From a virus, in the IMG/VR virus record IMGVR_UViG_3300042881_000722, positions 1 to 36,261 of that record: DNA of 36,261 nucleotides; one strand, written 5' to 3'. Below, in pieces: positions 133 to 34,856 of this stretch. The notes beneath the pieces were generated by a model. The model saw only the letters and a list, made by a program, of their open reading frames with translations. It did no database searches and was not told the origin of the DNA. A program made the position numbers and the translations under genes. Positions within the stretch are counted from its first letter, which is position 1. Each line of letters starts with the position of its first letter.

Positions 133-268
133 CGATGCCATCTCCTAGTTTCTGAATGAGCTTTCGAACTGTGTTCTTGTTTTCTATCTCGATGATGATC
201 GAGTGGTATTTCGTATTCCAACAACGGTGACTGTACTCGACACCGCAGACTTCACATCGCTTTGACAT
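8..268 (-). CDS. Small Cys/His protein of unknown function
   Basis: This 86-residue protein follows rusA with a 17-base overlap. The N-terminus carries CEVCGVEYSHRC, a possible zinc-binding CxxC...H...C cluster, and then a charged helix up to about residue 43. After that the composition becomes Ser/Arg-rich and less protein-like. Exactly there a second frame with a good coiled coil begins (ATG at 130-132). Either two genes overlap by about 125 bases or the true product switches frame near base 135. The first 43 residues are the better supported part. No function is assigned. Confidence 0.55.
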   Translation of the reverse strand: MSKRCEVCGVEYSHRCWNTKYHSIIIEIENKNTVRKLIQKLGDGIDEGRKSAKALGRSKKSKSTTCNSSPRNIPRRTWFAGTLRLR

Positions 269-614
269 ACGGTCTGATTCTCACAATCACTTTGCCATCC
301 TCACAGGCGTCATGCCGGGTGATGGATAGCGCGTCAATCAAGCTGTCGTCCTCGATAACGTCAGCGGCTACGATCGCATCGAGCAGCGCCTTCTGGATGT
401 TGTCCAGATCCCGGCGTCTCTTGTCTGGCGGGTACGCATCGATCGTCACTTGCAGCCGGCAGTTAAGGTTGTCCCGCGGGATTCCCTGCTCGAGTATCCG
501 ATAGGATACGTCCAGCCTGTACTGCCGACCTTCGCTCGAGATCACGGTGCGGCCACGATAGTTGCGCCAGTAATGGTTAATCGAAGGCGGCCAAGGTAGG
601 GTTAGCTCTAACAC
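252..614 (-). CDS. rusA: RusA-family Holliday junction resolvase
   Basis: RusA is a dimeric, metal-dependent endonuclease that cuts four-way DNA junctions during recombination and before packaging. The 120 residues have the family plan: an N-terminal PWPPSINHYWR (the PPSxN signature), a central RRRDLDNIQKALLDAI with the paired acidic residues DxDN, and a downstream DDSLI segment. Length matches E. coli RusA (about 120). The start is GTG at 612-614, behind a strong GAGGAGGGG site, and the gene overlaps its upstream neighbour by 38 bases. It lies at the far side of the control region from the other recombination genes, on the opposite strand, consistent with later expression when junctions need resolving. 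Confidence 0.93.
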   Translation of the reverse strand: MLELTLPWPPSINHYWRNYRGRTVISSEGRQYRLDVSYRILEQGIPRDNLNCRLQVTIDAYPPDKRRRDLDNIQKALLDAIVAADVIEDDSLIDALSITRHDACEDGKVIVRIRPYVKAM

Positions 615-2601: not shown

Positions 2602-2764
2602 CGCCCCTTGGGGTAACGACGATCAGAGCTGGTGGCACCAGCAGGAGATCGAGGCGCAGGAACGCGACGAGCAGGAGCGTATCGCCGCCTGCGACCGGGC
2701 GCTTGCCGAGCTAAACGCAATAATCGAAACCGAACTCGACAAGATCTACAGGAGCCTGCCGTGA
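2588..2764 (+). CDS. Small acidic early protein
   Basis: The product is 58 residues from ATG 2588, with AGGAG about 9 bases upstream, inside the end of the preceding microprotein gene. The N-terminus is rich in Trp and acidic residues (NAPWGNDDQSWWHQQ) and the rest forms a Glu/Arg-rich helix, possibly a coiled coil. It ends in a GTGA overlap with the annealing-protein gene, so the two should be translated together. No function is visible. Confidence 0.65.
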   Translation: MHIDNAPWGNDDQSWWHQQEIEAQERDEQERIAACDRALAELNAIIETELDKIYRSLP

Positions 2765-3279
2765 GCGAATTACTCAAGATCAACGTCAACGACCACGTTG
2801 AGAAGAAGCTCGGTCTCTCGTATCTGAGCTGGGCGTGGGCTTGGGCAGAGGTACTCAAGATCGACCCGACCGCCCGATACACGGTTCACGAGTACGACGG
2901 CCTGCCGTTGATGTATCTCAAGGATGGCACCGGGATGGTCAAGGTCTCGGTTGAGATCAAGGGCGACATCAAGACTTGCCTGTTGCCGGTGCTCGATGCC
3001 AAGAACAAGGCGATCGAGAATCCGAACAGCTTCTCGGTCAACACCGCCATTATGCGCTGCCTTGCCAAGTGCATTGCGATCCACGGCCTCGGCCTCTACA
3101 TCTACGCTGGCGAGGATCTGCCGGAAGCAGAGAAAGACGAGATGGAGACCAAGCTCGATGCCCTCCTCGCTGACTGCAACACGCTAGAGGAGCTGACTAC
3201 GCTGTACCAAACCCTGCCGTTAGATTTTGCCAAGAATCACGCTGCCAAGTTTTCGGCTCGCAAGAAGGAGCTTGCCTAA
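2761..3279 (+). CDS. Sak3/DUF1071-type single-strand annealing protein
   Basis: The product is a 172-residue recombinase of the Rad52-like annealing superfamily. The family signature is clear: an N-terminal ELLKINVNDHVEKK, then LSYLSWAWAWAEVLK, VKVSVEIKG, and NTAIMRCLAKCIAIHGLGLYIY with GEDLP after it. Such proteins form rings on single-stranded DNA and anneal complementary strands. The start is the GTG at 2761, overlapping the upstream stop. The open frame extends back to 2632, but conserved sequence begins at this GTG. The YqaJ exonuclease two genes downstream would supply its ssDNA, a Red/RecET-like pair. Confidence 0.9.
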   Translation: MSELLKINVNDHVEKKLGLSYLSWAWAWAEVLKIDPTARYTVHEYDGLPLMYLKDGTGMVKVSVEIKGDIKTCLLPVLDAKNKAIENPNSFSVNTAIMRCLAKCIAIHGLGLYIYAGEDLPEAEKDEMETKLDALLADCNTLEELTTLYQTLPLDFAKNHAAKFSARKKELA

Positions 3280-3821
3280 TGCTCTACACCCACGCAGGGG
3301 CGCTGCCAGCGCACCAGTACGTTTGGGTGGAGCCCAATGCCCTCGGCCAGCACGACTGGCTGCAGGGCGTCTGGTTTGGCCTGACTTGCTACCCGGGCCG
3401 TGCCTTTGGCTGCCATGTCATGCTTGAGTGCGGAGCGGTTTACCGTAACGTCCCGTTGCATCAGGTTGCACACCGTAACGCCGCGGCACCGTGGACTGCT
3501 GCCGACGCCCAAACATGGGACGCCTACGGCTACGAGTTCAGCATGATCGAGTACCCGTATCTTGCTGGCATGAACGGCAAAGCCAAGTGCAAGAGCGGCG
3601 AATATCAGGGACACTATCTGTTCACTTTGGTGCCGATCGGTGATGCGTTTAGCGCCACACCGACGCAATCCAAAGAATTCTATTTCATGCAGCTCACCAA
3701 CGGGCGATACACCGCCCAGCCCACGAACCATGTCCTGCTCGAGGATCGCTCGTTTACGGACACCCTTACATGGCCGACGTTTCTGCGCCGGCAAACCGAT
3801 TGGCATTCAGCGGAGGAATAA
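3279..3821 (+). CDS. Conserved hypothetical between annealing protein and exonuclease
   Basis: This 180-residue soluble protein is rich in Tyr, Trp and His, with probable beta structure (GCHVMLECGAVYRNVPLHQVAHR; YLFTLVPIGDAFS). It starts at an ATG overlapping the preceding TAA, and its own TAA overlaps the exonuclease start. I recognise no enzyme motif. Position between the two halves of the recombination pair suggests an accessory role in recombination or ssDNA handling, which is inference. It is a good candidate for a new recombination cofactor. Confidence 0.78.
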   Translation: MLYTHAGALPAHQYVWVEPNALGQHDWLQGVWFGLTCYPGRAFGCHVMLECGAVYRNVPLHQVAHRNAAAPWTAADAQTWDAYGYEFSMIEYPYLAGMNGKAKCKSGEYQGHYLFTLVPIGDAFSATPTQSKEFYFMQLTNGRYTAQPTNHVLLEDRSFTDTLTWPTFLRRQTDWHSAEE

Positions 3822-4420
3822 TGGAACAACGATCACCAGAATGGTACTCAGCTCGTCTCGGTCTCGTGACCGGGAGCGCGATATCCAATGTCCTGATGGA
3901 CAGCAGCAAAGCCGGGTATCGCAACTATCAGGCGCAGCTCGTCTGCGAGCGCCTCACAGGAGAGGCCACCGAGACGTATGTCAGCCCCGCGATGCAGCAC
4001 GGCATCGACACCGAGGATGAAGCGCGCGCCGCCTATATGGCTCGTAATGCGGTCATCGTCGATCAGACCGGATTCGTCCGGCACCCGAAGCTCGAGGCAG
4101 GCTGCTCACCGGATGGCCTTGTCGGCGAGGATGGGTTGATCGAGATTAAGTGCGTCCAGCCGGCGACCGCCTTGGACTTGCTCGAGTCGAAGAAAGTTCC
4201 GACCGACCATTACAACCAGATCCAATGGCAGCTCGCCGTGACCGGCAGAGACTGGTGCGATTACGTCGTATATCAGCCAAAGCTGCCGGAGCGCCTGCGC
4301 CTCAACGTGATTCGCGTGACGCGCAACCAAGCCGACATTCTGAACATGACCGAGAAGGTCGAGAAGTTCCTTGATGAAGTTCGACGTAAGACTAAAGCCC
4401 TTAAGGAGATGACCCTGTGA
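3821..4420 (+). CDS. YqaJ-like (lambda exonuclease family) 5'-3' exonuclease
   Basis: The 199-residue nuclease has the PD-(D/E)XK core of the YqaJ/lambda Exo family. An N-terminal RSPEWYSARLGLVTGS leads in, TEDEARAAY lies near 65-72, and the catalytic acidic residue D98 is in CSPDG. E108-I-K110 in LIEIKC supplies the ExK half. A later DHYNQIQWQLAVTG matches the family's substrate-side helix. It would resect dsDNA to leave 3' overhangs for the annealing protein encoded just upstream. The start is ATG 3821, with GGAGG before it and overlapping the previous stop. The frame is open further upstream, without family similarity. Confidence 0.93.
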   Translation: MEQRSPEWYSARLGLVTGSAISNVLMDSSKAGYRNYQAQLVCERLTGEATETYVSPAMQHGIDTEDEARAAYMARNAVIVDQTGFVRHPKLEAGCSPDGLVGEDGLIEIKCVQPATALDLLESKKVPTDHYNQIQWQLAVTGRDWCDYVVYQPKLPERLRLNVIRVTRNQADILNMTEKVEKFLDEVRRKTKALKEMTL

Positions 4421-4698
4421 AGCAATTCGATAACACCAACCGTGGATTGTTAGCCAAGAACGATCGCAAGCAGAGCGAGAACCAGCCGGACTACACCGGC
4501 AGCATCAACATCAACGGCGTCGAGTACTGGCTCAACGGCTGGCTCAAGACCGGGCAGAACGGCAGGCTGGCAGGGCAGAAATACTTCTCGCTGTCCGTTA
4601 AGCCGAAGGACGGCCTCGCTGAGCCGCGGCAGGCACCGAAGCAGCAGCAAGTCGTCGAGACGTTTAGCGACGACGACATCTCGGATATTCCGTTTTGA
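4417..4698 (+). CDS. Small SSB-like protein with acidic C-terminal tail
   Basis: This 93-residue protein starts at GTG 4417, overlapping the exonuclease stop and behind AGGAG. Residues 25-62 carry a small beta domain (YTGSININGVEYWLNGWLKTG...KYFSLSVKPK), seen in a family of small phage proteins. The C-terminus, after a Gln-rich linker, is DDDISDIPF. That resembles the acidic, Phe-terminated tip by which bacterial SSB recruits repair proteins. I infer an ssDNA-binding or SSB-mimic role. The fold assignment is not proved. The operon context (exonuclease, NinB) supports it. Confidence 0.72.
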   Translation: MKQFDNTNRGLLAKNDRKQSENQPDYTGSININGVEYWLNGWLKTGQNGRLAGQKYFSLSVKPKDGLAEPRQAPKQQQVVETFSDDDISDIPF

Positions 4699-5105
4699 AA
4701 CGAGTATTTCCTCGCGGCACTCAACCAGACCAGATCGCTTCGGCGATCTCGGTCTTGGTGCGGGGGCTCGACCCTGCCATCTCGTGGCAAGTCACGATCG
4801 AAGCATTTAAGCCGAAACGATCCGACAGGCAGAACGCATTCCTATGGGGCGTGATATATCCATCGATCCTTGAGGGAGGCGGTGAGATGCTGCGAGGCTG
4901 GACGGCAGACGATCTGCACGAATACTTCCTGATCGAAGCATTCGGCTCCGAGGTCATCGAGGGCTTTGGCCGCAAGCGACACAAGCCGATCCGCAGATCG
5001 AGCAAGCTCACCAAGCAGGAGTTCAGCGATTACCTCGCATTGATCGAGGCCAAGTGCGCGGAGCTCGGCATCCACATACCGGAGCCATCGTATGAACAGG
5101 CATGA
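4695..5105 (+). CDS. ninB: NinB/Orf-family recombination mediator
   Basis: The product is 136 residues, close to lambda Orf/NinB (146). Family features in order: WQVTIEAFKPKRSDRQNAFLWG, LHEYFLIEAFGS, RKRHKPIRRSSKLTKQEFSDYL, and the C-terminal LGIHIPEP. Orf binds ssDNA and SSB and stands in for RecFOR functions during Red recombination. The start appears to be TTG at 4695, overlapping the preceding TGA. No stronger start lies nearer the conserved region. Adjacency to a protein with an SSB-like tail is notable, because Orf is known to contact SSB. Confidence 0.92.
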   Translation: MKRVFPRGTQPDQIASAISVLVRGLDPAISWQVTIEAFKPKRSDRQNAFLWGVIYPSILEGGGEMLRGWTADDLHEYFLIEAFGSEVIEGFGRKRHKPIRRSSKLTKQEFSDYLALIEAKCAELGIHIPEPSYEQA

Positions 5106-7954: not shown

Positions 7955-7957
7955 GGT

Positions 7958-10900: not shown

Positions 10901-13900
10901 TAACTGTTCACTCGGAAGCACAGCTAAGTTACGCACCACCATTTGCGCATTAGCAACGGCAATAACAACCGCGTCCTCATCAACCTCAATTTGCTTGGCA
11001 ATGTTGACAAGTTTATCTGGGCCTGTGATTGGCTTGCCGCCAATATCCATCAGCTTCTTTGGATCTGCCTGCCCAAAATCCTTGTCGATTGTTTTTGCGT
11101 TGCCATCTGCATCGATCACCGTGTACTGATTCGTATCAACGATGACATGGCCTTTTGGGTCAACACCCATTTTAGCAATAAACTTCGACACGCTACGAGT
11201 GAAGTCAATGTCTGCCGTGCTCGCGGTTGGATTGGTGCTCGGGTGGTTGTGCAGCATATACACCCCCTTTGCGCCCAAGAAGATAGCGCGCTGCACTAGC
11301 TCACCCAAGAATTGTTCGCCTTCGCCAATAAAGCCAACAGCAGATCCCGGCAAGCGCGATGTCAGGCCAGCTTGCGCGATGATGTTATCGTTACGGTCAA
11401 CAAAGAAATACCGCAGCGTCTCAAAGCGAGGATCGCGATAAACTTGCGCTAGTACAGCGAGGTCGGCGTAATCGGTTACTTTTTGCCCGACGAGCGAGAC
11501 TCTCTGGCGCTCTGAATACTGATCAGAGAGGGAGAGGGCGAGTATAGAGTCGGCTGATCGTAAGTCCTCAACGGCCCTAACCGCTTGCCGTTGGGCAGCA
11601 GCTGCCCCCGGGCCAGCCTGCGTTCGAACAGGGCCTTCGGCGAGGTAACGCTGGAGTCCTTCATTTACGGTTAAGCCTCGAGAAACCTCGAGATCTCCTC
11701 GTCCTGCTCGTCTTGCGAGTTGCTCGGCCTGTAGCTCTTCGTCAACAGCTCGAGTGACTCCGGAGATTGCGTCTCTGGAGATTCCTCGCTGCTCGGCGAG
11801 CTTGGCTGCTGCGTTTGCGTAGTCTGGGGCTGCGTCGTCTGCATATCCTGCTTCGACTTCTGCATCTGATGCTCCTGCTGCGTCGTATAGTCGCTTTTCC
11901 GGATACCAAAGTAAAGCCTGCAAGTCGGCCATCGTCAGGTCTGGGTTATCGCGCTGGAGCTGCTCCAATGCGGCATTAAACACCTTGCGAATACGGCCAC
12001 GCTCTGGCGGCCCGTCCGGCGCTTCTTTTTGGCCGTCGAGGTATTTCGACAGGGCGTTGCCTGCTTTGCGGATCTCGTCACCAAGACCGACGCGAACGTC
12101 ACCCTTCTTCGGCGCACCGACAATAGCGTTAATCTGATCCTGATCAAATCCACGGGCAATGTCGTTCATGATCGCCCGGTTCTCAGGCTTTTGGCTTGCC
12201 TTGGCTATGGCGAAGGCGAGCTCATCAGGCCGAGAAACGGCAATCTTTTTGCGAAGCACTTGCTCGAGAGACTTGCGCTGCTCTTTGTCCAGCAGCTTGA
12301 CCAAGGCCACAAGCGACTTGCGCTTGGCTTTGACTTGTACCGGATTCTCTTCAATCAGGGTGCCAGTCCAGCGACCCCAAGTACGCATCAGCCAACGATC
12401 CATCGTAAGCTGTTCAAAATTGCCATACAGATTCGAGAAGAATCCGTTGCCGATTTTCGGGCCGAGGATGGCAGATCCGTAGACCTCGGTTCCCATGTTT
12501 TCGCCAGTCACCTTCAGCCCAGAGAATCCGGTGATGTTCTTCACCGTATCTTTGCTGCGCATGAACTTCTCGAGAGCATCGAATCCGTGTTGCTCGAGCA
12601 TGACGTTATAGAGCTTGAGGCCGTCGTTGATCTTTCCGCCAGCGGTGCCGATACCGACATCGGTCGGCATCTTGCCGGTCTTTTTCCAGCCTTCGTATGC
12701 CTTCATGGCAAGCTCGAAGTTCTTGTCTACCTTCAAGCCGTTCGACGTAACAGCAAGCGCCCAAGTAAAGGCCAGCCGATCCTCACGGCTCGACAAGATC
12801 TCGGGATGAATCAGCGAGATGATGCGCAGGGCTTTGGTAACTTTCTCGTTGTACCAGCCAATCGCATTGGAGTTGTCGCGCATAGCGATGCGAGCCTCGC
12901 GCACAGCGGTACGAATCAGGTACCGCTCAAGCGCCGGGGTCATCTCGGTCAGGCTGACTCCAGCCTCTTTAGCCGCGGCATTGACCGCATCTTGAATCTC
13001 TTTCTTAAACTCACGCTGTTGAGCAAACTTCTTTCCTTTTGCTCGCTCGAAGGCAGCTTCGACGTTCGACACATTGTCGACGCTGGTCGGGATATCACCG
13101 TATTCGGCAGCCTCTTCCTGCACCAATCGATTCGCGCGGAACTGGCTCTCAGTATTGACCGCGGCCACAGCTTCATCAGCAGCAGCCACGGCCTCATCAA
13201 GAGCCTGCGCAGCGGCATCAAGGGCAGGCACAGCTCGCGGCTCCGGGATCTCTGCGGCAGCCTCAAAGTCCACCATCGCGGCTTGATCTGGGCGAGCGTT
13301 CTCAATAGCTGCATTGCGAGCAGAGGTAAGCGGATCTACCGGGCTCTTCTGTCGCTGCGACGGGTCAAGTCCGACGATCGGCTCGACGTTGATCTGGCGG
13401 CTATCCATCGCCTGAGCAACACCGGCAGACAGGGCAGCGCGCCGAGTCTCGGGCAGCACTTGCTCAGCAATATTGCGAGCACTACCCGGCATGGTCTCTG
13501 CGTCAATTGCGCGCAGGATTTCCATGTCCTCCGCTGACAGCGGCTTGTTGGCTTCTACCTTATCCAGCAAGCGACGAGCCTCTTGTGCTCGAGCAAGACG
13601 CAGCACCTCGCGCTGTGCGCGCTCAGACCGAGCCTTAGCGTCAATCTGCAAGTCAATCGATGAATCCTCTTCGGCGCGCAGTTCGGCTTCGGCTTGTTTG
13701 CGAGCGGTGCGCTGACGCAGGCGACGAACCTGTCTGCTATCGGCCTGATCCGGCCCATAGACTGCAACGTCCTCGTCTCGCAATCGAGCTTCGATCTGAG
13801 CGATGCGAGCATCTAGCGGCAGAGTAGATCCAGCCTGATCGGCAACACGAGCAAGCGCGGTCTCGGCGTCATCCAGCTCGCGCAGCAACTGCTGCCGGTT

Positions 13901-14770
13901 TATGGCCGGTGCATCAGCAGCACGAGCGATCAGCTCCTCGCGCGTTCTGGCAACAATTACGTCGTCTGGATCAATTGCTCGCGGAGTCGGCTCAAGCTCT
14001 CCGATAGGAGGCAGGCTCTGGTCGGCTTCAATGGCCTGACGCACGGCAGCATCGACAGGACGCTCCACAGGCAACGGAGGGAGCCCCTGAGAGCGCCTGT
14101 AAGCCTCGGAGACAGCGCCGCCTATGCTGTGCAGGCCGCCGCCAATAGCGGCTCCAAATGCGATATTGAGAAGCGAGTCAGAAGCGTCGTAATCGGACTG
14201 CTCTGCCCGCGCTGCGGATAGAATGATGGGCTCGATAAGTGCGGCACCAGCCACGCCTTCTGCCGCGCCGATACCAGCTCTGACCGCTGTGCGACCACCG
14301 ATGCCAGCTCGAGCGCGCAGCATCGCGGCATATCGAGACTGACTCACAACCGGGACAAAGCCGGAAGCGATGTTGATCGGGTCAAACAACGACACGCCAA
14401 AACCAACCGCTAGACGGGCAGCTCCGCGGCCAAACCCGCCGGGACTTCTGGAATAAAGGTCAGCTCTCTGGTTCTCGATTTGCTTGCGGCGCACCAAGAT
14501 ATCGAGCGCCTCTTGAGTGATGCCTTGATCTGGCACCGTCAACTGCTTATCAAGCCCGGCGTTTCGAAGCTGCGATCGAGCACTATCTGCCGAAAGGATG
14601 TTGTTCGTGCGATATGCAGCAGCAAGATCCTCCTGCCGCTGGATCGATTGAACCGGATTAAACTCAAACGTCTCTCGAGCTGTTTCGATCAGCTCCTCGC
14701 CAAGTGCGGGCTCGCGAACAGCAGACTGCGGCTCGCGCTTCTGAAGAGTGAGCAATCCTTCAAAACTCAT
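7958..14770 (-). CDS. Giant internal virion (ejection) protein with embedded JAMM peptidase motif
   Basis: At 2270 residues this takes nearly a fifth of the genome. In position it replaces T7 gp16 (1318 residues). In content it is a large polyvalent-type protein. Residues 110-220 are Gly/Ala-rich and amphipathic, 260-550 are Glu/Arg/Ala coiled coil, and about 640-810 hold a conserved block (KNFELAMKAYEGWK...GTEVYGSAILGPKIGNGFFSN). About 1080-1225 is a RadC/JAB-like domain with H1174-N-H1176, S1184 and D1187 (exact HxH-x7-S-x2-D). The end (PFMNLFYTRIVLDYLILYQ...RRMERRVERE) is typical of phage ejection proteins. I see no lytic transglycosylase motif. Confidence 0.88.
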   Translation of the reverse strand: MSFEGLLTLQKREPQSAVREPALGEELIETARETFEFNPVQSIQRQEDLAAAYRTNNILSADSARSQLRNAGLDKQLTVPDQGITQEALDILVRRKQIENQRADLYSRSPGGFGRGAARLAVGFGVSLFDPINIASGFVPVVSQSRYAAMLRARAGIGGRTAVRAGIGAAEGVAGAALIEPIILSAARAEQSDYDASDSLLNIAFGAAIGGGLHSIGGAVSEAYRRSQGLPPLPVERPVDAAVRQAIEADQSLPPIGELEPTPRAIDPDDVIVARTREELIARAADAPAINRQQLLRELDDAETALARVADQAGSTLPLDARIAQIEARLRDEDVAVYGPDQADSRQVRRLRQRTARKQAEAELRAEEDSSIDLQIDAKARSERAQREVLRLARAQEARRLLDKVEANKPLSAEDMEILRAIDAETMPGSARNIAEQVLPETRRAALSAGVAQAMDSRQINVEPIVGLDPSQRQKSPVDPLTSARNAAIENARPDQAAMVDFEAAAEIPEPRAVPALDAAAQALDEAVAAADEAVAAVNTESQFRANRLVQEEAAEYGDIPTSVDNVSNVEAAFERAKGKKFAQQREFKKEIQDAVNAAAKEAGVSLTEMTPALERYLIRTAVREARIAMRDNSNAIGWYNEKVTKALRIISLIHPEILSSREDRLAFTWALAVTSNGLKVDKNFELAMKAYEGWKKTGKMPTDVGIGTAGGKINDGLKLYNVMLEQHGFDALEKFMRSKDTVKNITGFSGLKVTGENMGTEVYGSAILGPKIGNGFFSNLYGNFEQLTMDRWLMRTWGRWTGTLIEENPVQVKAKRKSLVALVKLLDKEQRKSLEQVLRKKIAVSRPDELAFAIAKASQKPENRAIMNDIARGFDQDQINAIVGAPKKGDVRVGLGDEIRKAGNALSKYLDGQKEAPDGPPERGRIRKVFNAALEQLQRDNPDLTMADLQALLWYPEKRLYDAAGASDAEVEAGYADDAAPDYANAAAKLAEQRGISRDAISGVTRAVDEELQAEQLARRAGRGDLEVSRGLTVNEGLQRYLAEGPVRTQAGPGAAAAQRQAVRAVEDLRSADSILALSLSDQYSERQRVSLVGQKVTDYADLAVLAQVYRDPRFETLRYFFVDRNDNIIAQAGLTSRLPGSAVGFIGEGEQFLGELVQRAIFLGAKGVYMLHNHPSTNPTASTADIDFTRSVSKFIAKMGVDPKGHVIVDTNQYTVIDADGNAKTIDKDFGQADPKKLMDIGGKPITGPDKLVNIAKQIEVDEDAVVIAVANAQMVVRNLAVLPSEQLRKGTAAAKTALMRTALEARGEFLFAIGKNMETLNAIQDFVVDRVFISPDGRYITASNPGMRSPFPQDRRARVSPDTSPAFDYLRKVSLEDAKRMRSVAEEGGVYNAPESNAELRPFNDAIQRADIYARAVRAAAERIGNDDAARAAMQAATNNQLGAYEIDQLLEQLKTENRTVRSRLKKAQAQFTADETADSLQSDAIRAANAVANNVKLDATIAARNAALTLAARTKIVGRVISQFAQNPREGILSVLGGSSFARFGSKDSVFHWQRTYFTRWTKGMLAELEQAGVGEAFMSNAYGRDVARALYQMGRPNPRLEGIVPEAVTIAKIVYKYREDARNTRNRFGAWIRDLTGYITRQQHDFTKIRTAGAEEWKAFVRQRLDVERTLEPGQNLEEFLDIVYDDLAAGRHLSAVDAEAAAYTTPGSLARRASQSRVIYFLDADSEFDYLEKFGSGKLNEAILGDLSRAAQQAGMMRILGPNPEYTLKASMAEIEASLRGDPETRANFADSKDEATNLLTMLDGRANVPGSQISARVGSNIRVVQSMAKLGGAVISAVTDLPVYASQIRYQGRGGLLSGIGEGISNLLQGRAKGERKQILNMIDSVAEGIIGGVAMRFDSDDIMSAGSADLMRIFFRLNGLAWWTDTLREGMELGTANWLGNLRNTGFDGLDASAKRLFEQYGITAPEWELLRRGFVSDSKGKFYVVPEAVSKLPQDAILSYLNTIGRSTTETAVINARRDLSDRLRNFIVDQAMTAVIEPDIRSRYFWTRGIKPGTFWGEIARYIAQFKGFPTALTRQVFGREIYGRGYNSLGEYIKYGKGDMLGLAQMILAMTAFGYIAMAAKDLIKGKEPRDPTQPQTWTAAMLQGGALGIYGDFLLGQSNRFGRNIIDTLVGPTFGVIGDLDELRQRAMRGDDVASSAFRMLIANTPFMNLFYTRIVLDYLILYQIQEALDPGSLQRMERRVEREQGQEFLLAPSEVVE

Positions 14771-16827
14771 TCGGGGCGTCCACCCATTTCGATGTCAAGG
14801 CGGCGAATCCGCTCGCCCTTGGTTGCGGAACGATTCTTGATCTGCTGCCAAGAATACTGGAACAGAGACCCGTCTGCTCGCTCAACAGGCTGACCGTCTC
14901 GCATCAAAACGACTCGATTGTCATCGGGCATGGTTTGCCAGTAAGAGCCTCGGATCGTGCCAATTCCAAGCTCCTTGATCGCCTCATTTCTGAACTCACG
15001 AAGACCAGTTCGAAGCTGCGCATTTGACACAGATTCCGTCACCGGAACTCGCACAATGGCATCGTCGATCTCTGCCAGCGCGTAACGCTCTCCGACAACC
15101 TCCTGATATGCAAGCTGGGCAGCGTCTGCCGCGCTCTTGCCATTTCGCGTGTAATCGACAGCAAGCCGATAAATCGCATTCTGCAAGATCAGACTGGTAT
15201 TGAGATCGCCGCCCTGCCCGACATAAGACGCGCTAATATCTTGAGCAATGTCAGATATCTCATCCTGCAAGTCTTTCGGCGAAATCTTCGACGGAAGCAG
15301 TTTGTTAAGATCCTCGTCCTTAATCGCAGATATTTCGATCAAGCGATTCGACGGGCCTTCGCGCATTCCAGCGCCGATGACCGCGGCATCAGCAGGCAAT
15401 TTGGATGCAATCTGCGAATACACATTCGGCCAATAGCGGCCCCACTTGCGTCGCTCTTCAATAATTGCGCCTGCGCCAACGATCGCGCCATCGCGCTCGG
15501 TGCGACCATAAGAGCGGTTGATTAAGTCATCGGCCAATGCTTTCGGGATCACAGCCTTGTTGTTGATTCCGATTCGGCGAGACTCAATGTCAACAATCGC
15601 GGCAAAACGTTCTGACGCAGCAGCTTGCTCTGCCGGCGTCGTAGCGCGACCGATCGCATCATAAGCATCACGAATCGCAGGATTGCGCTCAACAAGATAC
15701 CCAGCAGGATCGGCCTCTTGAGCCTGCACCATCTTGGTGTAAGCGTCAGAAACCATCTCAAATCTCTTTAGACTGCCGGCAGCGCCTTTTTCTTGGGTCG
15801 GGCGCATAGATTGAATCTTTTCCGCAGCTTCCGCTCGAGGCATCGTCGAGAGCGACACTATGGTGGCACTCGCGTTATACGTTGCTCGATAGTCCTCGTA
15901 TCGATCAGCAATACCAGCAGCAGCGAACTGCGCCTTTGTCAGCATCTTGTCAGGCGTGATGCCGACACTCATGTACGCAACCTGATCATCGATCTGTGTG
16001 CGCAGCACCTCTCGAGCCTCAGCTTCTCGAGCTCGGCGCTCCTGCTCCATGATCGCGATACGGCGCTCTGCTGTTGCTTTGACGTTATCAACAGAGTCTG
16101 CATCTAAGGCATCGAGATAAGTAAAACCAGTCTGCCCAGCAGGCTTATCAAGCGCAGCAAGAATCTGACGAGGGTTTTTGTCGGCAGCGGCAACAGCAGC
16201 ATCTTGGGCAAGTATCGCGCGCTGCTGAGAGTAAAACTTAGAGGCCGCAGCCTTATCAGGAATGCGAGAAGCAATCAGCTCAAGATCGCCGGCAGCCTGC
16301 GAAAACTTACTCGGATCTATCTGCACAACACGACGCGCAGAGTTAGCAGACTCATCTGCAACTCGCACCGTCTTTTCGACAGAGCTGCGAGCCTGATAAA
16401 CAGAGGAGTTTTTCTGGACATCCAAGCCTTGAATGCCAGCTCTTTCGCTAAACCATGCACGAGCCTTGTCAGATTTTAGATTCGGCAAATACTCATTAAC
16501 GAGCTCTTGGTATCGAGCCTGAGCTTTATCTGAAAATCCCTCAAAATCGTCGGCTTGTTCTGCCTCGCTTCTGAGGCGCTGCTCTTCTTCGATCCACCGG
16601 CTAGTTAGTTCGATAGACTTTGACGAGGCATCAATTGCTGCGTCATCTTCGCGGCGCTTCTCAATCTCTAAATTGCGGCGCTCGACCATCTGGCCGGCAA
16701 CCACAGCACCTCGAGCTATTGCTTCGCCGGTTTGCGCTAAACCAGACTGGATGCGCCCGAGCCCTCCGACATCGGGAGCAATGACGCGCGGCGTCGTCTG
16801 CTGTCGATAGAACTCGAGCTTTGCCAT
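14767..16827 (-). CDS. Internal virion protein, gp15-like position
   Basis: This 686-residue, mainly helical, Ala/Glu/Arg-rich protein is close in length to T7 gp15 (747) and lies between gp14-like and gp16-like genes. The N-terminus (YRQQTTPRVIAPDVGGLGRIQSGLAQTGEAI) is typical of podovirus core proteins, followed by long coiled-coil stretches (about 50-280). It probably forms part of the internal core and the channel through which DNA is ejected. It ends in an ATGA overlap with the giant protein. Assignment rests on order, size and composition. Confidence 0.82.
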   Translation of the reverse strand: MAKLEFYRQQTTPRVIAPDVGGLGRIQSGLAQTGEAIARGAVVAGQMVERRNLEIEKRREDDAAIDASSKSIELTSRWIEEEQRLRSEAEQADDFEGFSDKAQARYQELVNEYLPNLKSDKARAWFSERAGIQGLDVQKNSSVYQARSSVEKTVRVADESANSARRVVQIDPSKFSQAAGDLELIASRIPDKAAASKFYSQQRAILAQDAAVAAADKNPRQILAALDKPAGQTGFTYLDALDADSVDNVKATAERRIAIMEQERRAREAEAREVLRTQIDDQVAYMSVGITPDKMLTKAQFAAAGIADRYEDYRATYNASATIVSLSTMPRAEAAEKIQSMRPTQEKGAAGSLKRFEMVSDAYTKMVQAQEADPAGYLVERNPAIRDAYDAIGRATTPAEQAAASERFAAIVDIESRRIGINNKAVIPKALADDLINRSYGRTERDGAIVGAGAIIEERRKWGRYWPNVYSQIASKLPADAAVIGAGMREGPSNRLIEISAIKDEDLNKLLPSKISPKDLQDEISDIAQDISASYVGQGGDLNTSLILQNAIYRLAVDYTRNGKSAADAAQLAYQEVVGERYALAEIDDAIVRVPVTESVSNAQLRTGLREFRNEAIKELGIGTIRGSYWQTMPDDNRVVLMRDGQPVERADGSLFQYSWQQIKNRSATKGERIRRLDIEMGGRPE

Positions 16828-28812: not shown

Positions 28813-29103
28813 TTACTTACTCCACGGAAGCGAAACAGCCACCGGCTCCGGCGGCGGGTTCTTCAGCGATTCCTCGTATTTGGCTGCACGGGCTTCGCAC
28901 TCTGCCTTCGGCGTCTTTGCCCACACCCAACCCAGCACCGTCTCCTCGGTCAACTGGTCAAACGGGATGAAGTCATCAGACGGCAGACTCAAGTTTGTGA
29001 TCGAGTCATACGCCCCGATGCTCCAATGCACGGAGTACACGACATTATCCTTGTCGTTGAGACGCGGATACGCGCTGATTCCTTCAACCTTCCAGTTAGC
29101 CAT
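28813..29103 (-). CDS. Small conserved phage protein (DUF7936-like)
   Basis: The 96-residue product resembles small proteins located beside phage tail or fibre genes (VEGISAYPRLNDKDNVVYSVHWSIGA then IPFDQLTEETVLGWVWAK). The DUF name is given from memory. The TVLGWVW segment and the Pro-rich end are typical. Role unknown. It could be an assembly factor for the neighbouring LamG protein. Stop and start overlap with the gene before it (28813-29103 and 29103-29432 share one base). Confidence 0.75.
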   Translation of the reverse strand: MANWKVEGISAYPRLNDKDNVVYSVHWSIGAYDSITNLSLPSDDFIPFDQLTEETVLGWVWAKTPKAECEARAAKYEESLKNPPPEPVAVSLPWSK

Positions 29104-29432
29104 TAGATAGGCACTCCATCAATCGTGATGTCAAACTCGTCGCTGGCTACAGCAGAGGCGGTGACCGGCGTCGGCTCAATAAACGGCGGCAGCTCGCCCT
29201 CTGGCAACGTCGCAACATACTGGCATTCTACCCAAGCCATCTCGCCGTGGTTCCAGTTCCATTGGTAGCCGGGACGATCCTCGGGCTTAGGATCACGCAC
29301 GACCCACTCGCCGTTTAGCCACGCGACTTCCTTTCCTTCCGCAGCTTCGGGCTTGGCGGGAACTTCATACCAGCCCTTTTTGCTGTCGATCTGCTCGACT
29401 GGGTAGTGGCCTTTGAAACTATAGAGTGTCAT
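29103..29432 (-). CDS. Tail-fibre-associated small protein
   Basis: The 109 residues have a Trp-rich middle (EVAWLNGEWVVRDPKPEDRPGYQWNWNHGEMAWVEC) and a Thr/Ala-rich C-terminus. Proteins of this size and composition directly after fibre or adhesin genes often act as assembly chaperones. I infer that here without a recognised family. The gene lies 8 bases after the LamG gene on the same strand. Confidence 0.6.
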   Translation of the reverse strand: MTLYSFKGHYPVEQIDSKKGWYEVPAKPEAAEGKEVAWLNGEWVVRDPKPEDRPGYQWNWNHGEMAWVECQYVATLPEGELPPFIEPTPVTASAVASDEFDITIDGVPI

Positions 29433-29440
29433 GGTCTACC

Positions 29441-31480
29441 TCAAAGCACCGGGAACGCCGTAGTCGGCGGGGTGAAAGCAGCGGTGTAACGGGCGATGCC
29501 TTTGGTGATGCGGAAGTCGTCGATGTAACCAAAATACGGATCTCCACCATCGGCAGCCATTGATCCAACAGAAAGTGGGACTGTATTGGCTACAAGGGAG
29601 CCGCTTAAAGTTGTATTAATAACTTCAGTCCCATTTAGAAATGCTTTGAATACTGTTCCGTATCTAACAAATGCAACATGGCTCCATGTATTTACAGAAA
29701 TTGATCCACCAGTTGCGTTTACTGCCCAACTTGAGCCACTAGTTGAGAACAAAGCCCAAAGAGCGCCACTACTGATGCCCGGAGAGAACGGACCGTAGTT
29801 TGGTGAAGACGGTCTCTTGCCACAAAATCCCTGAAATCCTGAGACGCTTGTCGGATAAACCCAAGCCTCAATGGTGAAATCCCCTGATCCAAATTCAAAA
29901 TTAGGATTGTGTGGGGCTGTTAAATAATCCCCCGTCCCATCGAAATACATCGACGACCCGCCGAACTTGCTTTGCGTCGTGCTGATCTGCGCGTTACCCA
30001 CCGTCTCAAGGTCGTTCTTGGACGTAGCGTCGTAGATGCCTGCGTTGGTGAAGTTGGTGAGAAGGGATGTACCAGAGACGGCGGTTGGCGGCGCGGTGGG
30101 AACAGTTAAAGTTGATTGAGTTGGATCGTAAACGGCCGTCCCCTTAACCACGCGAAGTCCGCTGATGTATCCATTAATAAGATCCACATTACCAGCGGTA
30201 TTTGTTCCAATGTCTGAATTGTTATCAGTCCAGTTGGTCGAGTTAGTACCTGTTGCTACACGAGAGCCGTTTACATAAATGCTATGCGTCGTTCCGCTTC
30301 TGACATAAACAAGATGGTTCCATTGGCTATTTGGAACAGTGCCTCCGGTTATAACCGTTGCAGAAGAATAAACAAAAAACGCCCCATTTGGATTTATTGC
30401 AAGACCAAACCCTGTTGCAGATGGATTTGCGTTCCTAAAATCTATCAACACATAAGTGGACGCATTTACGCTATAAGTCCAACCTTCAACGGTAAAATTG
30501 CCAGTGCCGAATGCAAAAGCAGAATTTGCTGGGCCGGAAAGATAATCCCCGCTCCCATCAAAATACCCACTCCCGCCATTTGTCGCTGCACTCCACGCTG
30601 CCGTGGGGTTGAACGGGCTGAAGGCTTGGACGGATGGAGAGCCATTTACCGTAATCGCAAACGCATTTGACGAGTTATCAGAAAACCTATTGGATTGGCA
30701 GGTCAACAACGAGGTGCCAGAGATAGCCGTAAGCGGCGTTGTGCTAGGCGTGAAGTTGGTCGTATAGACAGCGGTGCCTTTGACAATACGGGCGTTTGAG
30801 ATGTAACCAATCCATACCTCGCCTGCCGTCGTAGACCCGCCAATCTTCGGGCCGGTTGTACCACCATCGCTTTGAGTAGAAGAATTGGTAAACGATCCAC
30901 TTGAAACACCGTTAATCCAATATGTCCAAGTGTTACCACTACGAGTTAGCGCAACATGATTCCAAAAATTAAATACTAACGAGTTAGTTGAAGCGCCTAC
31001 ATATCCGCTATTTGTAAAGACATTTAAGGTTAGGGCGTTCGCCGGTCTCATAAAAGCAAAACCAGTGGTATTTGCCGCGCTTGTTCGTATTTCAAAAATC
31101 GGCATCGGTGCGCCCGCGTTGGTGCCCGTTGGGTAAACCCACGCCTCTACCGTAAAGTCTCCTGTACCAAAATTAAACGCTGTGTTAGCAACCGTATTTA
31201 AATACTGTCCGCTAGTTCCGTCAAAGTAATTGCTCCACCCCGTCTGCGAGAACGGCGAGAACGTACCCTGCGTCGTGTTGCCGTTGCGGGTGATCGTAAA
31301 GTTGTTCGTTGAGCCGTCAAGGAACGTATTGTTCTGCGCTCCGTTGGTGCCGTTACCGGGCAGCAGCAGAGTGGTGTACTCAAAGTCCGGGTCAGAGACG
31401 ACCGGAGGCAGCGCACCGCTTTCGGTACGATCAAACGTCCGAACACTAGTCCGGCTCGCCGTGCGCTCAAAGGTACGCAT
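29441..31480 (-). CDS. Triple LamG/concanavalin-A-like adhesin
   Basis: The 679 residues comprise a short N-terminus and three tandem LamG-like jelly-roll domains of about 210 residues: about 36-250, 256-460 and 470-675. Each has the string FDG-x-G-x-YL, then FTVEAW/FTVEGW/FTIEAW, W-x-HV/HL, and ends in GYI-x-x-R-KG-A-Y (226-240, 437-451, 651-665). Such domains bind glycans, so it is likely a receptor-binding or adhesion component of the virion. The domain cores are AT-rich (about 33-43% G+C in several 60-base lines) against mid-50s percent elsewhere, a sign of separate origin or relaxed codon use. Confidence 0.88.
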   Translation of the reverse strand: MRTFERTASRTSVRTFDRTESGALPPVVSDPDFEYTTLLLPGNGTNGAQNNTFLDGSTNNFTITRNGNTTQGTFSPFSQTGWSNYFDGTSGQYLNTVANTAFNFGTGDFTVEAWVYPTGTNAGAPMPIFEIRTSAANTTGFAFMRPANALTLNVFTNSGYVGASTNSLVFNFWNHVALTRSGNTWTYWINGVSSGSFTNSSTQSDGGTTGPKIGGSTTAGEVWIGYISNARIVKGTAVYTTNFTPSTTPLTAISGTSLLTCQSNRFSDNSSNAFAITVNGSPSVQAFSPFNPTAAWSAATNGGSGYFDGSGDYLSGPANSAFAFGTGNFTVEGWTYSVNASTYVLIDFRNANPSATGFGLAINPNGAFFVYSSATVITGGTVPNSQWNHLVYVRSGTTHSIYVNGSRVATGTNSTNWTDNNSDIGTNTAGNVDLINGYISGLRVVKGTAVYDPTQSTLTVPTAPPTAVSGTSLLTNFTNAGIYDATSKNDLETVGNAQISTTQSKFGGSSMYFDGTGDYLTAPHNPNFEFGSGDFTIEAWVYPTSVSGFQGFCGKRPSSPNYGPFSPGISSGALWALFSTSGSSWAVNATGGSISVNTWSHVAFVRYGTVFKAFLNGTEVINTTLSGSLVANTVPLSVGSMAADGGDPYFGYIDDFRITKGIARYTAAFTPPTTAFPVL

Positions 31481-31483
31481 GGA

Positions 31484-31771
31484 TTAGTAAGTCGGAGCAG
31501 GAACGCGCAAAGCCATTGCATAGACGCCGGTAGCCGTTGCGATGTTGGCTCGGATTTCACCAGCGCCAAGCTCAAAAATGCCACCGCCGCTTGCAGTCAA
31601 TGTCGTATTAGTGCCGACATCCTGTGCGGTTCCGTTCGGGCCTTTGCATTGCAGCTTGACCGTGCCGCCGCCAAAGGTGCCTTCGACGCGAAACTCACCG
31701 CGACCACCCGGCCACGGAACCCATGAACCAGTCGCGCTAGCGTTAGATGCGAGAACAATACCTACTGCCAT
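31484..31771 (-). CDS. Small beta-rich virion or fibre-associated protein
   Basis: The 95-residue product is Gly/Thr/Ala-rich and beta-like (FRVEGTFGGGTVKLQCKGPNGTAQDVGTNTTLTASGGGIFEL). It occurs between two fibre-type genes. Proteins like this are found in many phages among tail fibre genes. It may form a short trimer. No enzymatic motif is present. It ends 3 bases before the start of the LamG gene, so the two are likely co-expressed. Confidence 0.72.
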   Translation of the reverse strand: MAVGIVLASNASATGSWVPWPGGRGEFRVEGTFGGGTVKLQCKGPNGTAQDVGTNTTLTASGGGIFELGAGEIRANIATATGVYAMALRVPAPTY

Positions 31772-31783
31772 TTCAGTCTCCGA

Positions 31784-32572
31784 TTAGGCGATTCGATTGA
31801 TGTTTGCGATGACCGATGGGGTAATCGGCCTAGTGGGGGAAGTCTGTGCAGCCGTGAAATCCAGCGTGACGGCTGCGTTTGGCGTTGACCACATCACCTC
31901 GATGTAGTCGCTAGCAGCCAACTGAAGCGTGAACACGATCGTTATGACAGCAGTACCGGGGACGCCGCCACCTTGAGCCGGAACCGTTGCGTCAGTATTG
32001 GAGTTGGCGATGTTGGTGCCGTTCTTGCGCAGCCAGAAGCTGACAATATGCGACGAGCTGTCGGTGTTCTTCAGCAACAGATTGAAATCGAACTTGTAGA
32101 ATCCAGCCCGAGTAACCGTGATTCGGCTATTCGACACAACCGAGATGCCACTTGAATAGTCCGTCGTCCCCAAGAGGACAGCGGTAGCTGTGTTGATGGT
32201 AGCCGTCTGATCGGCAAGGCTCGAGAACGCGCCGTAATCGTTTTCGGTAATGCGACCGATCGGAACGCTGCCAACCGTCAGAACGCCATCCTTGCGCACC
32301 GACCACTTGCTCACACCGCCAACTTGGAGATCATCAAGCAGAGAGCCAGCATCCGAGGCGGTATCCGTGACGTTAAACACACGAGCCTTAAACGTCGTCA
32401 GCGCGTTGTTCCAAGTCGCAGCCAGCGCACCGATCGACTTGCCGACGATCGCAGCCGCAGTCGCCTTCTTGGTCTCAGCAGATCCGGTGTCGTTAATCGG
32501 CAATACGTCAGCAGCAGGATCGATGGAATCCTGCGCGAGAGACGTTAGCGCCGATATCTTCTTGGTCGCCAT
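31784..32572 (-). CDS. Tail fibre / receptor-binding protein
   Basis: The 262-residue protein has a fibre-type N-terminus (KISALTSLAQDSIDPAADVLPINDTGSAETKKAT), a short linking helix, and a C-terminal beta domain from about 110. That domain has RAGFYKFDFNLLLKN and VSFWLRKNGTNIANSNT, a pattern seen in C1q-like or head-binding jelly-roll tips of fibres. It is likely trimeric. Its position next to terminase and the LamG adhesin, far from the tailspike, gives the phage two adhesion gene clusters. ATG overlaps the preceding TAA by one base. Confidence 0.8.
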   Translation of the reverse strand: MATKKISALTSLAQDSIDPAADVLPINDTGSAETKKATAAAIVGKSIGALAATWNNALTTFKARVFNVTDTASDAGSLLDDLQVGGVSKWSVRKDGVLTVGSVPIGRITENDYGAFSSLADQTATINTATAVLLGTTDYSSGISVVSNSRITVTRAGFYKFDFNLLLKNTDSSSHIVSFWLRKNGTNIANSNTDATVPAQGGGVPGTAVITIVFTLQLAASDYIEVMWSTPNAAVTLDFTAAQTSPTRPITPSVIANINRIA

Positions 32573-32736
32573 TACATCATCCCACGAGCGCGCTTGGCAG
32601 CCTCATCCTTGCGCTTGGCAATCATCTGGGCAGCATTCATCTCGCCCTGCTTCATGCCTTCTTCCATGCCCTGAGCTTGACCCTTCTTCTTGCCCTTCTT
32701 GTACAGGCCCTTTCCGGCCATAGCCATTGCGCTCAT
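32572..32736 (-). CDS. 54-residue basic protein beyond terminase
   Basis: ATG at 32734-32736, TAA at 32572-32574. The excellent CGGAGGTGG site lies 4-10 bases upstream, and the start shares one base with the stop of the preceding gene. The sequence is Lys/Met/Gln-rich (KGLYKKGKKKGQAQ, then a helical KQGEMNAAQMIAKRKDEAAKR). Small basic proteins here could bind DNA during packaging. No family is known to me. Confidence 0.72.
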   Translation of the reverse strand: MSAMAMAGKGLYKKGKKKGQAQGMEEGMKQGEMNAAQMIAKRKDEAAKRARGMM

Positions 32737-32933
32737 CAGCCACCTCCGAGCAAACGCGAAACCGCAACCGAACCAGTCTGCTGACTACCCGGTGTCGACA
32801 TGATCGTAGATGCGCGGCCACGGCGACGAGCCATGCGGCGCTGCTCGATGCGCGAGAGCTGCGCCTCATCCACCGTCGGAGGCGGGGGCGTCGGCTCGAT
32901 CTTCGGCATCTTCGGCTTAAAAAGACTTGACAT
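32736..32933 (-). CDS. Small conserved phage protein after terminase
   Basis: The 65-residue product has a Pro-rich N-terminal part (PKMPKIEPTPPPPTVDEAQL), then a basic run (RIEQRRMARRRGRASTIM), and a short Gly/Ser/Leu end. Such a peptide is found beside TerL in many podoviruses (the ending SxLLGG is typical). The basic region may contact DNA or the terminase. It is followed by the 54-residue protein with an overlapping start. Role unknown. Confidence 0.75.
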   Translation of the reverse strand: MSSLFKPKMPKIEPTPPPPTVDEAQLSRIEQRRMARRRGRASTIMSTPGSQQTGSVAVSRLLGGG

Positions 32934-32963
32934 CTGGCGCTCCTTTCGGGTTGCGCAAGTAGT

Positions 32964-34340
32964 CTACCCCAGCACCCTGTAGTCTGCTACTGCCACTTGA
33001 TGGCTTGGACGACGGGCTTGTTCCGTACCGCGGAACGGCTTGCGACCCTTGGCGAGATACCGGAATGCGTCTGCGTAATGCGACGTCCAATCGTGCAGCG
33101 GCTTGTCCTTGAACCGCTGGAGCTTATCGTCGTATTCGCGCCTGTACTGCCGCAGGGCGTCGAGAGCGCGAGTCATCCTACCCTTCGCCTCGTCTGCCGT
33201 TTCGCCCGGGAACGGATCTGGTGCGGTATTGAACTCGGTCGCAGGCAGCATCATTCGCGCAGCTTGGATACCATCGTCCACCGAGTCGCGCTCGAGGATG
33301 CGAGGCTTGAGACCGTAGCCAGCAGCGACCTGCACTCGAGACTGCCCAGATCCCCACTCCTGCACAGCGCCGTCATGCGGCCAGATGTGATCGCCGTAGA
33401 CGTAATCCATCGCGAGCAGCTTCTTGACGTACCACTCGAGCCCGACGCCGGAGCCTTCGAGTACGTTGATGATGCGCACCTTGTGACCGATGAGCTGGTA
33501 GAACCAGATGATCGTGGAGTCGCCGACACCGATATCCCATGCCGTGCCGACAGGCTGGCCGATAACGTGCGGGAAGTCGCCGATCCTGCCGTTGGCTTCT
33601 GCGCTGCGGATCAGCTCCGATAGATATGCACCCGGGATGTCTGCGTCGAAGTCGCAATAGTATTCCTGCCGGATGATCGCTTCGGCTTCCTTGTCGCCGC
33701 GCTCCATGCGCAGCTCTTTGCGCTCGCGCTGAATCGTCGCGATCGGAATCGCTTTCGTATCCTCGACGGTGAGCACCTGACCGAACCAGTCAGCATCCTG
33801 CTTGGCGTACTCGACTAGCCGAGCAAAGTGGTTCCTGCCGCGGGGTGTCGAGATGAAGATCGCCCAGCCGCCGTTCTCTGCAAGGATCGGACGCAGGAAT
33901 GCCCACGCATTCGGATCTGCCATCGCGTACTCGGAGAACACGACGCCGACCGGAGGCGAGCCGACAAGGCTGTTGTAGTTGTCCGATCCGACGACTTGCC
34001 ATGTCGAGCCGTTCTTGAACCGGATAAACATATCCTGCTCACGAGTGCTCTCGCGCAGCTCCATCGGGAATGCGTCATCGATGCGGCGCTTGCCGGTGTG
34101 CGGATTGACGGCATCCCAGATTGCTTTGCGCGACTGGTTGGCCTGCGGAAGCATATGCCACACAGATCCGACGCGAGTCATCATGGACACAGCAGCCCAA
34201 TGCAGGCTTATGTCGTCCTTACCGGATCGACGGTGCCAAGCCAGAGCAAGGCGCTTGGTGCCGCTCTCGAGCGCACCCCATGCCCCCATTTGGTACGGTC
34301 TTGGTCTCCAGCCGTTATGCGGCAGGGTTATTGTCGGCAT
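32964..34340 (-). CDS. terL: Terminase large subunit
   Basis: The 458-residue packaging motor has both expected halves. ATPase: Walker A-like HRRSGKD (36-42), Walker B region VGVVFSEYA (131-139, with Ser where many TerL have Asp), and the coupling motif STPRG (164-168). Nuclease: DIGVGD with D269 and D274, later PHDG, and the C-terminal HDWTSHYADAFRYL. It translocates DNA through the portal and cuts the concatemer. The start at 34338-34340 overlaps terS by 26 bases. The Ser variant at the Walker B is common among related podovirus enzymes. Confidence 0.95.
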   Translation of the reverse strand: MPTITLPHNGWRPRPYQMGAWGALESGTKRLALAWHRRSGKDDISLHWAAVSMMTRVGSVWHMLPQANQSRKAIWDAVNPHTGKRRIDDAFPMELRESTREQDMFIRFKNGSTWQVVGSDNYNSLVGSPPVGVVFSEYAMADPNAWAFLRPILAENGGWAIFISTPRGRNHFARLVEYAKQDADWFGQVLTVEDTKAIPIATIQRERKELRMERGDKEAEAIIRQEYYCDFDADIPGAYLSELIRSAEANGRIGDFPHVIGQPVGTAWDIGVGDSTIIWFYQLIGHKVRIINVLEGSGVGLEWYVKKLLAMDYVYGDHIWPHDGAVQEWGSGQSRVQVAAGYGLKPRILERDSVDDGIQAARMMLPATEFNTAPDPFPGETADEAKGRMTRALDALRQYRREYDDKLQRFKDKPLHDWTSHYADAFRYLAKGRKPFRGTEQARRPSHQVAVADYRVLG

Positions 34341-34701
34341 CGGTTAGGCGAACCACGTTGACGGTCAGACCGACGTTGCCGGAGTGCTCGACCTCGGCTT
34401 TGTCGCCGTATCGTTTGGGTAGGAACTTGGACGCGAACCACTTGCGAGCATCCAGCTCGACCCGAGCCTGCTGGGCATCGATGACGCCAGAGCGCATATC
34501 CTCGATGACTTGCTCGGCCTTCTCGACCTGATCCTGCGCCAGAGCTTCTAATGCGCGCGCGTAGTGGTCGCCCGAATTGACTCTCAACGCCGTCGTCCTA
34601 AACGTCGAGCGGCTGATTCCTACTTCCGCGCAGGCCGATCGCTCGGACATTCCGTCCTCGATCAGCTCCAATACGCGCCGAACTTGCTCGGCTTTATCCA
34701 T
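34315..34701 (-). CDS. terS: Terminase small subunit
   Basis: The 128-residue protein has an N-terminal helix-turn-helix (EQVRRVLELIEDGMSERSACAEVGISRSTFRTTALRV, about 5-42), then helices for oligomerisation (YARALEALAQDQVEKAEQVIEDM), and a short C-terminal part. This fits TerS, which recognises phage DNA and stimulates TerL. TGATG overlap with the upstream small gene and 26-base overlap with terL show coupling. The packaging site could not be located. Confidence 0.92.
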   Translation of the reverse strand: MDKAEQVRRVLELIEDGMSERSACAEVGISRSTFRTTALRVNSGDHYARALEALAQDQVEKAEQVIEDMRSGVIDAQQARVELDARKWFASKFLPKRYGDKAEVEHSGNVGLTVNVVRLTDADNNPAA

Positions 34702-34856
34702 CAGCCCTTACGCTTTGCAGCGCCCTTCTTGGCGGCAGCGGATCGCTTCGTAGCGTAGGCGATTGCCACGGCTTGCTTAGTTGGCCGGCCAGCCTTGATC
34801 TCGGTGCGAATATTCTCGCGGAAAGCCTTTGCAGATGAACTCTTGATGAGTGGCAT
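34701..34856 (-). CDS. 51-residue basic phage protein
   Basis: ATG 34854-34856, TGA 34701-34703. The sequence (MPLIKSSSAKAFRENIRTEIKAGRPTKQAVAIAYATKRSAA) is a very recurrent small protein of podoviruses, normally close to terminase. It is helical and basic, compatible with DNA binding. Its role is not known to me. It was found from the DNA sequence because it is too short for most gene callers. It overlaps the terS start by one base. Confidence 0.82.
   Translation of the reverse strand: MPLIKSSSAKAFRENIRTEIKAGRPTKQAVAIAYATKRSAAAKKGAAKRKG

Follow-up and report, generated by a model that had tools for sequence, protein, structure and literature searches.

Probable exchange of AT-rich LamG cores between conserved linkers in a putative phage receptor-binding protein

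A gene whose base composition rises and falls in step with the repeats of its product raises the question of what keeps parts of one reading frame so different from the genome around them. The case considered here is a three-repeat LamG gene in a virus genome with a G+C content of 0.563 (record IMGVR_UViG_3300042881_000722, one virus, whose whole 36,261 bases were analysed and are called the window below). The direct terminal repeat of 127 bases means that the record is probably complete, and its genes fit a small podovirus-like phage: a portal gene (Head-tail_con match), a capsid gene (Phage_capsid_2 match), a terminase identified through PHROG, internal virion proteins, and a tail protein that is matched by PHROG tail families and scores below the cut-off of the T7 tail-fibre Pfam model.

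The LamG ORF and its flanking genes, one for a 262-aa protein that matched no family and the other the 109-aa gene of Table 1, are placed between the portal and terminase genes. The 109-aa gene, whose GC3 tracks the genome, was matched by no Pfam, PHROG or NCBIfam family at the thresholds applied; a relative is present, mostly in the same place, in 58 of the 74 loci with room for it (among the best 80 loci described below), and it is a candidate assembly partner of the LamG array. Elsewhere in the window, a 2270-aa virion-type protein (7958-14770) has a RadC-like stretch (aa 1107-1219, below the curated cut-off), the gene at 14767-16827 ranks second in the window for GC3 deficit (z -6.1) and encodes a protein with a partial-length match to a head-protein family, and an ORF with a PHROG match named ferredoxin (3279-3821) is situated between the Sak and exonuclease genes.

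Table 1. Segments of the LamG gene, its downstream neighbour and putative recombination genes of the window
Feature	Position	Strand	Remarks
Three-repeat LamG (Laminin_G_3) protein gene, 679 aa	29441..31480	-	
N-terminus, aa 1-30	31391..31480	-	differs among relatives; low model confidence
Linker 1, aa 31-84	31229..31390	-	conserved; GC3 0.81
Core cassette 1, aa 85-230 (YFDG to GYISNAR)	30791..31228	-	GC3 0.41
Linker 2, aa 231-304	30569..30790	-	conserved; GC3 0.59
Core cassette 2, aa 305-445	30146..30568	-	GC3 0.34
Linker 3, aa 446-510	29951..30145	-	conserved; GC3 0.69
Core cassette 3, aa 511-640	29561..29950	-	GC3 0.33
Closing segment, aa 641-679 (GYIDDFRITKG...)	29444..29560	-	conservation intermediate
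109-aa gene	29103..29432	-	directly downstream of the LamG array, 8 bases away
Sak single-strand annealing protein, candidate recombinase	2632..3279	+	
YqaJ/RecE-like exonuclease	3770..4420	+	
NinB/Orf-like recombination mediator	4695..5105	+	Pfam NinB below its cut-off
RusA-like Holliday junction resolvase	252..614	-	

Composition and predicted fold of the LamG protein

AT-rich LamG cores separated by linkers near the genome value had been noticed in the initial annotation, and sliding-window G+C bears this out, with minima in 200-base windows of 0.395 (core 1), 0.400 (core 2) and 0.420 (core 3) and peaks of 0.53-0.565 between the cores. ‘Linkers’ take in the conserved stretch ahead of each YFDG motif, where GC3 rises past that of the genome, to 0.80-0.87, in the case of repeats 1 and 3. 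Against expectations derived from the residues and from the codon usage of the 18 other window genes, the LamG gene has the largest GC3 departure of the 19 (9.2 s.d. below expectation); a residual below -0.25 occurs in 38% of its 30-codon windows and in at most 5% of those of each of the other 18. The G+C expected from the residues correlates with that observed (0.50) at half its amplitude (s.d. 0.037 against 0.072), and along the gene expected GC3 is nearly flat (0.60-0.68) against an observed range of 0.17-0.87. Amino acids thus do not wholly explain the G+C, and the earlier suggestion that selection for Asn, Thr and Phe codons drives it holds for a minor part, due to amino acid composition, and not for the main cause. 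When synonymous codons were permuted inside the gene, the linker-core GC3 difference of 0.327 compares with 0.007 +/- 0.041, and none of the 5000 permutations reached it.

The protein belongs to the Laminin_G_3 family (PF13385, 174.5 bits against a cut-off of 27.6, in three stretches), and its AlphaFold2 model (mean pLDDT 81.1, pTM 0.58) consists of three beta-sandwiches, to which the linkers add one strand and a short hairpin; large parts of linkers 1 and 3, and the end of linker 2, are modelled with lower confidence. A Foldseek comparison with laminin LG domain arrays (E 3.5e-15, TM 0.21) has tandem LG proteins as the best-scoring solved matches, the resemblance being one of domain fold with a different arrangement of domains, and serum amyloid P is matched with a TMt of 0.69. 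The span of a cassette, set against the predicted sandwiches, suggests that a cassette is nearly one whole domain. The PHROG matches are to virion structural and baseplate proteins, and the protein appears to be of receptor-binding type, with a putative receptor role; the model is a LamG beta-sandwich array and not an adhesin of the T-even gp38 type, with its PGII sandwich and glycine-rich motifs. At 35-41% amino acid identity to each other, the three repeats of the window are too divergent for recent tandem duplication.

The wave and the cores among relatives

Scanning viral contigs with the whole window protein gave a first set, in which the best 80 loci, phage record DSL-LC04 and the window together hold 91 LamG ORFs, 70 of them with three repeats; 69 of the 70 had enough background, and removal of six near-duplicate loci left 63, among which three pairs still have all cores in common and one locus, L023, contributes three ORFs (successive three-repeat ORFs on one contig, at 5377-14637). 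All 63 have a higher GC3 residual in linkers than in cores, and the mean profile has steps at YFDG (aa 85, 306 and 512) and close to the GYIxxxR strand. Cores have a GC3 of about 0.30 and a slope on background of 0.24-0.34, and the linker slope is 0.75-0.80. The difference is smaller on average at lower background (r 0.66), with no fading of the wave on contigs of at most 44% G+C, where 13 ORFs are all positive and each has linker 1 above background. The named phage record DSL-LC04 is a six-repeat version with low-GC3 cores, its values for slots 1, 2, 4 and 5 mixing linker and core since the model edges there start within the linker. Apart from the ORFs of L023, 12 have six repeats.

A second set came from core-only scans (best 80 each) and comprises 200 new ORFs. 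Scored by residuals, those with at least two canonical linkers have a positive linker-core difference in 132 of 154 cases, and in 63 of 63 at background GC3 above 0.45; those without canonical linkers are positive in 18 of 27, with a small core deficit (-0.06). Judged by raw GC3, 162 arrays show a positive difference in 17 of 31 cases at contig G+C of at most 40%, in 51 of 60 at 40-48% and in 71 of 71 above 48%. The second-set wave is thus strongest where the cores differ most from their own genome.

Between phages, linkers are on average 68-80% identical and cores 31-35%. A core is common to two phages at 60% identity or more in 20 of 1953 pairs, 14 of which share exactly one core, three share two and three share all. 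Particular siblings illustrate what differs: L035 and L021 are replaced around core 1, and L015 and L026 around core 2, both pairs being collinear with 94-99% identity on both sides of the replaced block, and L056 and L066 differ in cores 2 and 3, with a 95% match for only 2 kb upstream and 97% over the last 121 bases. The segmentation edges of these blocks (aa 51/303; 257/479; 314, 477, 520 and 653) fall in linkers or near linker ends, and replacement may extend into the adjacent linkers. More generally, 62 of 73 breakpoints fall inside a linker or at most 15 residues from a core edge, where length alone would put 51%, a count biased by the conservation that linkers have anyway, and the case for exchange therefore rests on the sibling pairs. 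A near-identical fragment common to otherwise diverged proteins is what is looked for in mosaic phage proteins, and is found here. Of the marks of a diversity-generating retroelement target (a reverse transcriptase with a template repeat, and adenine-directed variation), no reverse transcriptase match was present among the 29 window ORFs scanned with PHROGs, and array variation takes the form of block replacement.

The core-1 type of the window occurs in nine loci at 70-79% identity (two of them, L094 and L095, with identical figures) and in two same-gene copies at 100%, with no match above 45% below that group among the 80 listed. It occupies slot 1 in L092, L093, L095, L097 and L098, and slot 2 in L096, L099 and L100 (the last cut short), where it follows the slot-2 linker type. 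The contigs carrying it range from 41% to 56% G+C, and its GC3 moves from 0.20 at a background of 0.27 to 0.41 at 0.63, a partial adaptation to the genome. Apart from same-gene copies, and among the matches listed, the nearest relative of core 2 is 47% identical and that of core 3 is 55% identical, on a contig of 43% G+C.

Synonymous codons were compared at identical residues only, in 805 pairs of 41 phages (from 41 of the 63 first-set ORFs). Sharing beyond chance (kappa) is 0.14-0.20 for linkers, 0.12 for the neighbour gene and 0.03-0.07 for cores; sharing in the neighbour gene and linkers correlates (r 0.35-0.51), and with cores r is -0.06 to 0.20, which suggests a codon history common to linkers and neighbour gene and not to cores. 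In the 1916 pairs without shared cores, exact DNA runs of at least 20 bp are found in linkers in 22-32% and in cores in 0.7-6%. Comparison of metagenome contigs, then, shows cores being replaced, assorting independently and changing slot.

The company kept by the array also varies. Nine carrier records were compared with the window terminase, and L095 alone has a matching one, at 35% identity. In the best 80 loci (many short, some from the same phage) there are 15 terminase matches, six to the portal and one to the capsid; a portal search of 14 carriers, run without a positive control, gave no match. So few matches suggest that the array occurs with different backbones, absence from a fragment being no proof. 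For a bacterial source, a scan of genome contigs yielded four loci, 30-39% identical, with no useful donor; core donors were presumably AT-rich phages. As a separate matter, L004 has no differences from the window at 29144-32999 and 197 (about 11%) at 33000-34731, and the abrupt junction, within the terminase gene, means either that the LamG region was exchanged recently or that the pieces were joined in assembly.

A proposed route of exchange and its alternatives

The reading that we consider likely is that of a LamG array of receptor-binding type in which recombination within the linkers or close to them exchanges the cores, with an AT-rich phage pool as their source. The exchangeable cassette would be most of each LamG sandwich, from the YFDG strand to the GYISNxR strand, with the conserved linkers, in fixed order, as sockets. 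DNA identity in the linkers would permit homologous recombination to swap a core, sometimes together with an adjoining linker, the rest staying in place. Cores would come mainly from phages of about 35-40% G+C and, by turning over faster than third positions adapt, would be AT-rich in a phage of 56% G+C, the resident linkers matching genome composition. The benefit may be a change in what the virion binds. Annealing recombinases tolerate short or imperfect homology, and the enzymes might be the phage's own Sak, YqaJ, NinB and RusA proteins or those of co-infecting phages. Among 17 carrier records (window included) Sak was found in two, ERF in two, YqaJ in one and RecT in none; with Sak or ERF in only four of the 17, virus records of unstated completeness, annealing proteins of the Sak, ERF and RecT families are rejected as a general partner, and a phage's own enzyme therefore cannot be assumed for all.

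That the repeats are acquired or recombined as cassettes had been proposed from the composition of the window, and the proposal gains from the sibling core replacements, the independent assortment of cores and the one core type in two slots, and further from the growth of the wave with genome G+C. Persistence of the first-set wave on contigs of at most 44% G+C counts against an AT-rich core pool alone, and both the partial adaptation of the core-1 type and the positive values in 18 of 27 non-canonical arrays count against the reading. A bolder version, in which AT-rich LamG cassettes form a common library passed among aquatic phages that are otherwise unrelated, with linker sockets conserved as DNA for recombination and core codons serving as an arrival clock, is tentative and rather doubtful.

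GC-biased gene conversion might raise the G+C of often-recombining linkers while heterologous cores drift towards AT by mutation bias. The excess of first-set linker GC3 over background, by 0.17 in linker 1 and 0.10 in linker 3, would accord with this, as would the many C- and G-ending codons that are raised, but linker 2 is close to background (+0.03), the difference is almost gone in the AT-rich genomes of the second set, and the bias is not established for these phages, so that this origin is unlikely.

Synonymous-codon selection tied to domain architecture, through the rhythm or accuracy of translation or through mRNA structure, would give AT-rich cores and G+C-rich linkers whatever the genome, as in all 63 first-set ORFs, including the 13 on AT-rich contigs, and with a step of the mean profile at the motif boundary. 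It would also suit the higher GC3 of more conserved columns in linkers and cores alike, though among well-conserved columns (entropy below 1 bit) those of cores are at -0.08 relative to background and those of linkers at +0.13. At odds with such selection, residuals reach only -0.02 to -0.05 in the LamG cores of two phages of 57-58% G+C, Rhizobium phage RHph_Y52 and Synechococcus phage S-CRES3, even if a GC3-rich stretch (+0.17) comes before the second of the two S-CRES3 cores. With a second-set wave that fades where genomes are AT-rich (17 of 31 at no more than 40% G+C) and is small in arrays without canonical linkers, selection of this kind is quite unlikely to be the explanation. The same two phages lead to rejection of AT-richness intrinsic to the LamG fold as the sole cause. 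In Pseudomonas phage SCUT-S3 the deficit covers the core (-0.21) and the stretch ahead of it (-0.17) alike.

Core swapping could instead be an artefact, conserved linkers leading assemblers to join pieces of different phages. The longest exact linker runs in phages without shared cores are 102-116 bp, which is close to assembler word lengths, and as the pairs with swapped cores are metagenome contigs, chimeric joins at conserved linkers could mimic some exchanges. Yet the sibling contigs carry different sample numbers, two of the pairs keep their collinearity to either side of the block, arrays alike in all three cores turn up again across sample numbers (L054/L056, L014/L007 and L077/L078), the codon wave is independent of assembly, and DSL-LC04, its culture status aside, is a named record with the architecture and low-GC3 cores; artefact as the general answer is very improbable. 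That the AT-richness stems from the residues used (Asn, Thr, Phe) is scarcely credible, the correlation of expected with observed G+C notwithstanding, and is refuted as sole cause by the half amplitude, the flat expected GC3 and the synonymous shuffles.

Comparison with known systems

Reportedly, motifs of the T-even adhesin gp38 recombine, a finding said to be that of Tetart et al. in 1998. Adhesin shuffling is in any case already known, and LamG core cassettes would be a variant of it. Domain shuffling in phage proteins has been described in general, and domain mosaicism in phage receptor-binding proteins is a subject of Smug 2023 (PMC10684548), whose main text uses none of the terms LamG, laminin, concanavalin, lectin, GC content and linker. 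For marine phages, the genes of metaviromic islands listed in Mizuno 2014 (PMC3909814) include those for lectin-like domain proteins. In cryoconite phages, according to the relevant passages of Bellas 2020 (PMC7468147), variants of recognition genes shuffle independently, as do two regions of one long ORF; those phages have near-identical core genomes, whereas here different backbones and a composition signature are involved. ‘LamG’ is absent from the main texts of both Bellas 2020 and Mizuno 2014, and in the titles and abstract openings searched, a partial coverage of the literature, neither LamG cassettes nor such a codon wave were found. Concanavalin A-like lectin/glucanase proteins of uncultured Caudovirales phages in BFVD are alike by fold annotation alone, the best match being 40% identical over near-full length with a TM-score of 0.80.

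What the window adds is an oddity of composition tied to modular exchange, across backbones, of a likely host-recognition protein. Since the linkers are aligned resident controls within the same gene, cassette turnover could be measured against codon adaptation, and the rate of receptor-module exchange in natural phages becomes testable from sequence. The closest parallel is with gp38 (PMC12892980), as portrayed there, in having variable recognition segments between conserved motifs; in gp38 these are variable loops of a PGII-sandwich tip, whereas here near-whole LamG sandwiches would be swapped, in ordered slots.
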